Source of the DNA: a virus | Virus record (IMG/VR): IMGVR_UViG_3300042484_000227 | Coordinates: 1-24,835 of that record | Length of the DNA stretch: 24,835 nucleotides | Reading direction: 5' to 3' (one strand) | Part shown: positions 12,358 through 24,133 of the stretch, piece by piece | Numbering within the stretch: position 1 is the stretch's first letter | Layout of the letters: each line of letters begins with the position of its first letter | Made by a program: the position numbers and the translations under genes | Notes under the pieces: model-generated | The model's database searches: none | Told to the model about the DNA's origin: nothing | The model's input: the letters and a program-made list of their open reading frames with translations, nothing else

Positions 12358-12387
12358 CAAATATACGCTACTTATTAACAATACAAA
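12358..12387 (-). promoter_or_regulatory. Bacteroidota-type promoter (TTTG-N18-TATATTTG)
   Basis: Minus strand: a TTTG at 12387-12384, an 18-base spacer, then TATATTTG at 12365-12358. This matches the Bacteroidota -33/-7 consensus (TTTG, about 19 bases, TAnnTTTG). Transcription should start about 5-8 bases further on, giving a leader of about 25-30 bases for the gene at 12323. The 18-bp TTAACA repeat lies upstream at 12401-12418. Confidence 0.72.
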
Positions 12388-12400
12388 ACTTTTTAGAAAT

Positions 12401-12418
12401 TTTAACAAAACTTTAACA
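12401..12418 (-). repeat. 18-bp TTAACA direct repeat, copy 1
   Basis: The plus strand reads TTTAACAAAACTTTAACA: two TTAACA hexamers 11 bp apart, about one helical turn. Related 18-mers lie at 17822-17839 and 23640-23657, each upstream of a TATATTTG box. A further single TTAACA lies at 12375-12380. It may be an operator or an upstream promoter element. It abuts the stop of the 59-residue gene. Confidence 0.65.
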
Positions 12419-15468: not shown

Positions 15469-15563
15469 AATATTATTATTGATGTTATTAAACTCATTAT
15501 TGTTACTATAATTATAAATGCTACTATTACTGCAGTTATAAATGTTTCTGTTTCTTTTCTCAT
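15465..15563 (-). CDS. 32-residue single-span membrane peptide
   Basis: My translation gives MRKETETFITAVIVAFIIIV, then TIMSLITSIIIL before TGA: a charged cap and one long hydrophobic helix (about residues 8-32). Start and stop each form an ATGA overlap with the neighbouring genes, good evidence that it is translated despite its size. It would insert in the inner membrane. A role in membrane perturbation or host interaction is possible, but none is shown. Confidence 0.6.
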   Translation of the reverse strand: MRKETETFITAVIVAFIIIVTIMSLITSIIIL

Positions 15564-16081
15564 AGTCTTATGTTTTTATTCATTATATAAAATGCTTTTA
15601 GTCTATCGTTTATTATTTCATATTGCATTGTTCCGTTTGTTTCTTCTAAAAGGTTATTTAAGTTTTCTATTATTTCATAGTTATATTTTTTTGTTTGTTG
15701 TTGTTTCTTTAGTTCGTTTTTTAATTCGTTGTTGTTAAATCTTAATGTGTTTATTTGTTGCTGTAATGCTTCTGTTTCTGTTAGTTCTTCTATTTGTTTG
15801 TCTACTTTTATAAAGTGACTTAAAATAGTATCTTTAATCTTTTTTAAGTCTGAATTATCTTTAGAATATACTTCATACATTCTTAATGCGTGTATGATTG
15901 TAGCGTGGTTTAAATCTATCGTTTCTCCTATTGATTGTAATGTTTTATGTGGCTTTAATTGTTTTAGTATTGTGCAATATAAACTTCTTATTTCAACTGT
16001 ATTTTTCTTTCTTGTTTTTATGTTTATATCTTCGCCTGTTTCTTGGAGTATTATTTCTTTTAATCTGTCTGTTATTTCCAT
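15560..16081 (-). CDS. DnaA domain IV-like DNA-binding protein with coiled coil
   Basis: A 173-residue protein whose first 75 residues look like the DNA-binding domain IV of the replication initiator DnaA. There is a helix RSLYCTILKQLKP (32-44), then TLQSIGETIDLNHATIIHAL (47-66), equivalent to the IGxxxxxxHxTVxHA signature that contacts the DnaA box. It lacks the AAA+ domain entirely; residues about 95-150 form a Q/N/K-rich coiled coil instead. It could mark the phage origin, compete for host DnaA boxes, or act as a regulator. It lies among nuclease genes and is coupled to its neighbours by overlaps at both ends. Confidence 0.8.
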   Translation of the reverse strand: MEITDRLKEIILQETGEDINIKTRKKNTVEIRSLYCTILKQLKPHKTLQSIGETIDLNHATIIHALRMYEVYSKDNSDLKKIKDTILSHFIKVDKQIEELTETEALQQQINTLRFNNNELKNELKKQQQTKKYNYEIIENLNNLLEETNGTMQYEIINDRLKAFYIMNKNIRL

Positions 16082-17788: not shown

Positions 17789-17796
17789 CAAATATA
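17789..17796 (-). promoter_or_regulatory. Bacteroidota-type -7 box TATATTTG
   Basis: Minus strand TATATTTG matches TAnnTTTG exactly. No perfect TTTG is seen 18-20 bases upstream, but a TTAACA (17806-17811) and the 18-bp repeat (17822-17839) lie just behind it, then a terminator. The order terminator, repeat, -7 box, short leader, ATG makes it the likely start of the 17765-12420 unit. Confidence 0.62.
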
Positions 17797-17821
17797 AACA
17801 AGTTTTTAACATAAAATACAT

Positions 17822-17839
17822 TTTAACAAAAATTTAACA
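17822..17839 (-). repeat. 18-bp TTAACA direct repeat, copy 2
   Basis: The plus strand reads TTTAACAAAAATTTAACA, differing from copy 1 at one position. Two TTAACA hexamers are spaced 11 bp. It lies between the terminator 17841-17867 and the TATATTTG box at 17789, with an extra TTAACA at 17806-17811 as in copy 1. Confidence 0.65.
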
Positions 17840-17840
17840 T

Positions 17841-17867
17841 AAAAAAAAGCAACCATTTCTGATTGCT
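17841..17867 (-). terminator. Intrinsic terminator of the ATPase/sigma-like unit
   Basis: Minus strand: AGCAATCA pairs with TGGTTGCT (8 bp, one G-U) around a GAAA loop, then eight T. It lies about 45 bases after the last stop (17911) of the upstream unit. The 43 bases between hold only a C-rich patch (tccccc) and no gene. Confidence 0.88.
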
Positions 17868-17910
17868 TAATCCCCCGTTATTAAATTAATCGTAAATGTA
17901 AGACCTACCG

Positions 17911-19733: not shown

Positions 19734-20276
19734 TTAATATAATGTGTTATAATCGTTAGTAATATAATCCTGATAATCCTTGTTAAATTTTGTATTTAAT
19801 ATTTCTTTGTAATTCTTAATGCTATGAAATATTGATATTAAACTGATATTTGTTTCTTTTGCAATATCACGCATACTCATATCTGTATCGCGATATAATT
19901 TAAACAGTTTGCGGTCATACCAGTGCCAGTTATCTATTTCTTCATCAATCATTAAACATATATCATTGTATGCTTTGTGTTCTTCTACGTTTGAATCATC
20001 AAATAATTCCCAACAACCATCAAAAGATACTTTATTAATCTTTTTCTTTTTATTGTAAAACTGATAATAAAGGCTTCTAAGCGTAAAAAATACATATCCT
20101 TTACGTACATTACCATTTACATCAATTAGCTTTGTAGCATCAGCGTATTTCATTAAAGCAATGTAGCTTTCTTGGACAATATCTTCTGCATAATCGTACT
20201 CACCAAGTTTATGAATAACTTCTACCCATTCTTTGTGATGCTTTGCAACCTGTTCTAACCATTTGTAGTCGTCCAT
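19734..20276 (-). CDS. Sigma-70 family-like transcription regulator
   Basis: A 180-residue protein with a region 2-like segment, YDYAEDIVQESYIALMKYAD (27-46), matching the DxVQExxLxL core used for polymerase binding. Next is VRKGYVFFTLRSLYYQFYNK with a basic patch (57-82). A region 4-like helix-turn-helix follows: YDRKLFKLYRDTDMSMRDIA then KETNISLISIFHSIKNYKEIL (120-160). This is the ECF-like two-domain layout. It may direct host polymerase to phage late promoters or act as a DNA-binding factor only. It overlaps the upstream membrane protein gene by 22 bases. I am confident of the fold, less of sigma activity. Confidence 0.78.
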   Translation of the reverse strand: MDDYKWLEQVAKHHKEWVEVIHKLGEYDYAEDIVQESYIALMKYADATKLIDVNGNVRKGYVFFTLRSLYYQFYNKKKKINKVSFDGCWELFDDSNVEEHKAYNDICLMIDEEIDNWHWYDRKLFKLYRDTDMSMRDIAKETNISLISIFHSIKNYKEILNTKFNKDYQDYITNDYNTLY

Positions 20277-23605: not shown

Positions 23606-23613
23606 CAAATATA
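23606..23613 (-). promoter_or_regulatory. Bacteroidota-type -7 box TATATTTG
   Basis: Minus strand TATATTTG matches the TAnnTTTG consensus. It lies 31 bases before the first ATG (23575) of the erf/SSB-like unit and between that unit and terminator 23661-23687. No perfect -33 TTTG is present at 18-20 bases; the 18-bp repeat lies 26 bases upstream of the box. Confidence 0.6.
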
Positions 23614-23639: not shown

Positions 23640-23657
23640 ATTAACAAAACTTTAACA
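23640..23657 (-). repeat. 18-bp TTAACA direct repeat, copy 3
   Basis: The plus strand reads ATTAACAAAACTTTAACA, 17 of 18 identical to copy 1 and 16 of 18 to copy 2. TTAACA hexamers are again 11 bp apart. It sits between terminator 23661-23687 and promoter box 23606, the same arrangement as copy 2. Confidence 0.65.
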
Positions 23658-23660
23658 AAT

Positions 23661-23687
23661 AAAAAAAGCTACCTTTTACAGTAGCTT
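23661..23687 (-). terminator. Intrinsic terminator after ninG-like gene
   Basis: Minus strand: AAGCTACT pairs with GGTAGCTT (8 bp, one G-U) around a GTAAAA loop, followed by a run of T. It lies 30 bases after the ninG-like stop and separates that gene from the erf unit. Confidence 0.85.
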
Positions 23688-23717
23688 CTTAAAACAAAGA
23701 AAAACAAAAACAAATTT

Positions 23718-24095
23718 TTAACCTAAATTATTAACCTTATTAGTATAGTATTCTATCATTTCAATCAAATCTACATCTGCAAATTTAACTATTTGTTTTG
23801 ATTTAATATGCATTTCTTCAGATAACTTATCACCAAGATATTGACTAAATTTATATTGTTCGCCAGAACGTGATATATTGCAACCATAACATTGAACTCC
23901 TACATTATTAATATCCCATCTTGTTGAATAATGTGAACGTGATTGAAAATGACCGCATTGTAGCTTTTTATAATGGTCTTTTTTACCACAAGTAACGCAT
24001 ATCGAAATATCAGATATAGCATCTTTGCGTCTTATATATTGACTAAAGATTGTGTCTAATTTTATTACTAAACTTTTCCTTGTTGGTTTTTTCAT
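23718..24095 (-). CDS. ninG: NinG-like recombination protein (HNH-type zinc fold)
   Basis: I choose the ATG at 24095, giving 125 residues from MKKPTRKSLV; a TTG two codons upstream is less likely. The protein has ICVTCGKKDHYKKLQCGHFQ (32-51) followed by SRSHYSTRWDINNVGVQCYG (52-71) and CN. CxxC, CGHF, WDINNVxxQCxxCN is the pattern of lambda NinG (Rap), a nuclease-related protein that helps recombination by acting on branched DNA. C33, C36, C69 and C72 probably hold zinc; H49 lies in the nuclease core. It forms a single-gene unit with a TACATTTG box just upstream and a terminator downstream, close to the erf and SSB-like genes. Confidence 0.85.
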   Translation of the reverse strand: MKKPTRKSLVIKLDTIFSQYIRRKDAISDISICVTCGKKDHYKKLQCGHFQSRSHYSTRWDINNVGVQCYGCNISRSGEQYKFSQYLGDKLSEEMHIKSKQIVKFADVDLIEMIEYYTNKVNNLG

Positions 24096-24098
24096 ATA

Positions 24099-24106
24099 CA
24101 AATGTA
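24099..24106 (-). promoter_or_regulatory. Possible -7 box TACATTTG close to ninG start
   Basis: Minus strand TACATTTG fits TAnnTTTG, but ends only 3 bases before the ninG ATG, so the mRNA would be leaderless or start inside the gene. A TTG lies 15 bases upstream, shorter than the usual 18-20 spacing. It may be a chance match, or the true start may be a later ATG. Confidence 0.35.
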
Positions 24107-24117
24107 ATTATACTTTA

Positions 24118-24133
24118 TTAACAATCGTGTTAA
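24118..24133. promoter_or_regulatory. TTAACA inverted repeat upstream of ninG
   Basis: The plus strand reads TTAACAATCGTGTTAA: 6-bp arms TTAACA and TGTTAA around a 4-base centre. The hexamer is the same as in the three 18-bp repeats but here in inverted orientation. It overlaps the -33 region of the possible ninG promoter, a place where a repressor could act. Confidence 0.4.

Follow-up and report, generated by a model that had tools for sequence, protein, structure and literature searches.

Why should three promoters of one phage carry nearly the same 18 bases upstream, at distances that differ from one promoter to another? The window, by which we mean the whole 24.8 kb stretch of DNA analysed here (26.8% G+C), is the full extent of one IMG/VR virus record; that record could in turn be a fragment. 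Most of its genes are carried by the minus strand, and they include phage genes for a terminase, Erf, a recombination exonuclease and NinG/Rap. No DNA match to cultured phages was obtained at megablast sensitivity, and uncultured relatives of the window number in the hundreds. A protein with a DnaA C-terminal (DnaA-box-binding) domain, possibly a replication initiator, is encoded at 15560-16081.

Read on the coding (minus) strand, the three near-identical 18-mers correspond to TGTTAAAnTTTTGTTAA. Each belongs to a promoter, one ahead of the erf region, one ahead of the replication/exonuclease region and one ahead of the late region; the features are as follows:

12401..12418, minus strand: upstream element of the late promoter, TGTTAAAGTTTTGTTAA(A); the 17-mer lies 36 bases before the box
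12358..12365, minus strand: TATATTTG box of the late promoter, a Bacteroidota -7 element, 42 bp before the ORF at 12323-12102
12375..12380, minus strand: third TGTTAA of the late promoter, 9 bases before the box and off the ladder of forward elements described below
17822..17839, minus strand: upstream element of the replication/recombination promoter, TGTTAAATTTTTGTTAA(A), 26 bases before the box
17789..17796, minus strand: TATATTTG box, upstream of the ORF at 17765-17556 and of the exonuclease gene (17154-16441)
17806..17811, minus strand: third TGTTAA of the replication/recombination promoter, 9 bases before the box
17847..17868, minus strand: intrinsic-terminator-like hairpin of the upstream unit, 7 bases before the element
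23640..23657, minus strand: upstream element of the erf promoter, TGTTAAAGTTTTGTTAA(T), 27 bases before the box
23606..23613, minus strand: TATATTTG box of the erf promoter, upstream of the Erf gene (23305-22727)
23663..23690, minus strand: intrinsic-terminator-like hairpin of the upstream unit, 5 bases before the element

A preliminary description of this DNA had reported that the copies at 12401, 17822 and 23640 agree in at least 16 of 18 positions, that they are intergenic and lie 26-36 bases upstream of a box, and that each contains TTAACA hexamers 11 bp apart. Measurement bore this out: pairwise agreement is 17, 17 and 16 of 18, the distances to the TATATTTG boxes are 36, 26 and 27 bases, and the only three TTAACA-N5-TTAACA pairs of the window are at these copies (0.07 expected), all within non-coding DNA, which makes up 11.6% of the window. 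The third hexamer that had been noted 9 bases from the box (TGTTAA on the coding strand) was found at the boxes at 12365 and 17796, and the terminators said to adjoin two copies correspond to terminator-like hairpins at 17868-17847 and 23690-23663. In relatives, TGTTAA(TAA) at 9-11 bases before the box forms a separate conserved peak. With at most one mismatch, the window contains three copies, a number reached in none of 400 dinucleotide-preserving shuffles (mean 0.00). When three mismatches were allowed, 5 of 100 shuffles gave at least three matches. This excess is weak, so the strength of the signal lies in the near-identity of the copies.

Conservation was examined in loci of relatives retrieved by Erf or terminase similarity, the motif not being used. 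Exact 17-mers numbered 72 distinct cases in these loci; every one shared the strand of the query gene, and a box followed 69 of them. Gaps between element and box at orthologous promoters, in counts that include motif-retrieved loci and related sequences and are uncorrected for relatedness, were 37 (45 cases), 27-28 (19 cases) or, with the element inverted, 21 (4 cases) for erf, 26 (49 cases) or 36-37 (17 cases) for the exonuclease, and 36-38 (37 cases) or 26-27 (4 cases) for the late promoter. The element is kept at orthologous promoters, and its distance to the box shifts by whole helical turns (10-11 bp); the relatives L004 and L005, for instance, have a common core sequence and a 10-bp indel between element and core. 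The paired element was absent from six of seven cultured phages examined, two of the seven having been read in part. In Panino, a cultured Maribacter phage, a single forward element lies at the left end (L626 192-208), before a TATGTTTG box and with a gap of 27. These sequence comparisons give strong support to the view that the erf, replication and late units share the element upstream of their promoters. This much of the preliminary description held, on conservation and on phasing; its idea of an operator coordinating the three units gained no support. The element is found at promoters of the early, replication and late classes alike, so that its role would be in strength rather than in timing.

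The dependence on helical turns was followed across viral contigs. IMG/VR contigs were scanned for the forward orientation with the gap to the box left free between 10 and 40 bases, and among the matches listed all 93 unique gaps fell at 26-28 or 35-38. The inverted orientation, initially intended as a control, gave a complete set of 79 stretches, and 56 of 59 unique gaps were at 29-33. After clustering at less than 50% identity, the forward orientation remained within its two bands (18 of 18 clusters, among the matches listed) and the inverted orientation within its single band in 27 of 30. Extension of the scan to 68 bases revealed further forward gaps at 39 and 43-49, and one at 55. With a relaxed motif, forward gaps were 26-28, 35-39 and 43-45, and inverted gaps 21, 29-33, 41-43 and, in one case, 38. 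The best common period was 10.4-10.5 bp with an offset of 4.7-4.8 bp between forward and inverted elements, a result reached by none of 2000 uniform controls. The positions form a ladder of 10.4-10.5 bp, on which the orientation alternates at each half turn. Promoters outside the retrieval set had peaks of TGTTAA at 26, 37 and 48 in the family of the window, and of TTAACA at 31-32 and 42-43 in a diverse set. Two Gs that had been left out of the selection were found as G in 44 of 48 and 42 of 48 cases, versus a background of 12.5%.

To what could such a ladder be anchored? The TAnnTTTG-type box is the -7 element of Bacteroidota sigma-A promoters and occupies -12 to -5 relative to the start (PMC9723704). 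All elements are tied to the TATATTTG box, and are an upstream addition to the -33 TTG and -7 TAnnTTTG core; TTG at the -33 position was present in 32% of promoters of the closest class (26-28), versus 60% and 72% in the far and inverted classes. Box coordinates here assume the F. psychrophilum register, and arithmetic from the gaps then places the AAA tracts of the element at about -40/-51 or -50/-61. In Flavobacteriaceae rRNA promoters (37 distinct sequences from 24 loci, picked by box pattern near 16S genes and mutually related), A-tracts peak at about -41, -52 and -64, and TTG is at -33/-34. The A-tracts of the element (about -40, -51 and -61) share the register of this Flavobacteriaceae set, most of the phages themselves being uncultured, and those of a rare host copy, 40 bases before the box of a DUF4870-PadR-PspC operon, lie at -53/-64. 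In the rRNA promoters (L612-L655), strongly phased A-tracts were seen near -22, -41, -52, -64 and -76, the one at -22, which falls in the spacer, being the most regular.

An inverted element presents the same face if it is turned about a pivot close to the AAA of TGTTAAA; this pivot is at about -50 and has its partners at -40 and -61. Arithmetic permits equally well another pivot half a turn away; the first agrees with the rRNA A-tract ladder within one to three bases. The C-terminal domain of the host polymerase alpha subunit aligns with that of E. coli, and the segments VR..NCLKA and GKKSLTE, which we take to hold its DNA-contact residues, are kept. Since pivot and rRNA ladder agree and the alpha domain is conserved, contact by the alpha subunit would be the most economical reading. 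It is also the one of three previously proposed binders that fits best, as the A-tracts of host rRNA promoters lie on the same rungs.

We therefore compared the element with the UP element known from E. coli rrn P1 and other promoters. Both are found upstream of -33/-35, the phage element at about -38 to -67 (gaps 26-28 and 35-39) and the UP element at about -38 to -60, and the two A/T half-sites of the UP element, one helical turn apart, have a counterpart in TGTTAA-N5-TGTTAA, with 11 bp. The face-of-helix dependence of UP elements is matched by comparative sequence only, through the period of 10.4-10.5 bp and the jumps of 10-11 bp between orthologues. The phage element differs by its use in two orientations with a half-turn shift and by its occurrence mainly in phages, and binding by alpha is here a prediction. 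It differs also in its composition, since the E. coli consensus requires no specific G/C, whereas the phage element has a fixed sequence with two conserved Gs. Judged by its sequence and spacing, the element works like an UP element; the membership claim is limited to this wording because the G/C-free consensus is known for E. coli only.

We lean slightly towards a two-site UP-type element on which two host RNA polymerase alpha C-terminal domains dock, raising promoter strength. Its half-sites would be two TGTTAAA A-tracts with a repeat distance of 11 bp, both on the same helix face and upstream of the -33/-7 core. The alpha C-terminal domains of the host (Bacteroidota) polymerase would reach them by their flexible linkers and thereby increase recruitment. 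These linkers would allow the pair of sites to lie at about -40/-50, -50/-61 or -61/-71, or to be inverted, provided that the A/T tract stays on the same side; because of this requirement an inversion would cost half a turn. Early, replication and late promoters alike would be strengthened, stimulation and start positions being predictions. The element thus probably helps host RNA polymerase to grip phage promoters more strongly.

Some observations count against the UP model. The two conserved Gs would not be needed by a plain A/T UP element, and their conservation although unselected leaves room for a sequence-specific protein. Host rRNA promoters have long A-runs, not TGTTAAA, and no positional peak of the motif was detected among 355 candidate host promoters (2 Mb, five host genomes). 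Among 299 Flavobacteriaceae genomes, a single inverted element with a box was found, at a gap of 31. Hosts have about one copy per genome, mainly at one PadR-linked operon. The element is therefore not a routine part of host promoters, and a general host promoter motif was rejected. The preliminary description would have been undermined by a motif equally common inside genes or in host intergenic DNA; it proved to be common in phages and rare in hosts.

Among the alternatives to the UP model, the one that survives best is a sequence-specific host activator, such as an OmpR/PhoB-type response regulator that acts on 11-bp direct repeats. It would bind the TGTTAAA repeats and recruit polymerase, and its site would have been captured by many Bacteroidota phages. 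The two exact repeats at 11 bp and the Gs conserved without selection agree with it, as does the presence of the element in phages that show no detectable relatedness to the window. So does the host operon encoding DUF4870, PadR and PspC proteins (names assigned by reading the translation): in many Flavobacteriaceae, one exact 17-mer is conserved 40 bases before its box, in a scan that selected for the motif, so that its conservation is biased upward. However, the use of both orientations with a half-turn shift would be unusual for a head-to-tail dimer that touches polymerase by one side, and the genes downstream of the few host copies examined are unrelated to one another. The exact 17-mer is present in 1-3 copies in each of eight host genomes, which were found by a motif match and are therefore guaranteed at least one; besides the PadR operon, host pairs were seen, with gaps of 30-31, ahead of a MarR gene in two genomes, of a TetR gene and of a gene for a membrane protein. 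Such an activator is possible, but we regard it as rather unlikely. At the promoter of the DUF4870-PadR-PspC operon, a conserved PadR-like palindrome, GTACTATGnnnnACAnnATACT, lies between the 17-mer and the box (L274 2239-3368 and orthologues).

The Pho box of PhoB/PhoP, regulators of the OmpR family, consists of TTAACA-like direct repeats with an 11-bp period upstream of promoters. The phage element has the same 11-bp direct repeats but is used in both orientations, and its host copies examined are not at phosphate genes: no phosphate-uptake gene was recognised, from translations, among the host genes at about 20 sites. On this misfit of host genes the Pho-box reading was rejected. A broader proposition covers both an undescribed Bacteroidota activator with a TGTTAAA half-site and an alpha C-terminal domain that prefers a sequence including G, either of them acting in both orientations and acquired by many unrelated phages as a universal means of boosting their promoters; we hold it tentatively, as somewhat short of an even chance.

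A phage-encoded factor that binds the element and controls phage transcription is improbable. As such a factor would have it, the element abounds in the phages and is scarce in hosts, and the window itself encodes a candidate:

19734..20276, minus strand: sigma-like protein, with weak region 2 and region 4/HTH matches

The proteins of this family are small, with a region 2-like N-terminus and an HTH C-terminus, and are widespread in these phages. The family was found in 16 of 50 element-bearing viral records (26-287 kb, possibly incomplete) and was not detected in the other 34, contig fragments being liable to miss genes. The idea that the protein occurs wherever the element does was accordingly rejected, and the earlier proposal of this protein as the binder now looks unlikely. 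Two further facts speak against any phage factor: a host operon carries the element as a fixed feature, and early and late promoters have it in common. Least probable of all is that the intrinsic curvature of phased A-tracts raises promoter activity with no specific protein: AAAnTTTT tracts phased at 11 bp, face-of-helix dependence and phased rRNA A-tracts would suit it, but AAAnTTTT is nearly its own reverse complement and hence predicts the same phase in both orientations, whereas the orientation centres differ by 3.6-6.6 bp (arithmetic) and the Gs are conserved, so that pure curvature was rejected.

No description of the element was found in the open-licence literature on TTAACA, UP elements and Flavobacterium promoters, and the papers searched say little about what precedes the unusual core promoter of Bacteroidota. 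Phages here offer a natural experiment: across hundreds of promoters, a single element has changed place by whole turns or has been flipped and displaced by half a turn. Together with the phased A-tracts of rRNA promoters, the phage ladder provides a testable rule of promoter strength for Flavobacteriaceae, which would help in interpreting phage and host genomes and in designing expression tools for this family.

A fourth intergenic box, absent from the preliminary description, was found at 24106:

24099..24106, minus strand: TACATTTG box of the NinG/Rap promoter, with the ATG at 24095
24128..24133, minus strand: lone TTAACA hexamer in inverted orientation; it lies 21 bases before the TACATTTG box and falls on one of the rungs for inverted elements

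A TGTTAA lies 11 bases upstream of this box. TAT-ATG follows the box directly (24106-24093), which suggests that the NinG/Rap mRNA is probably leaderless. The box-TAT-ATG arrangement is kept in relatives, together with TGTTAATA at 11 bases before the NinG/Rap box.
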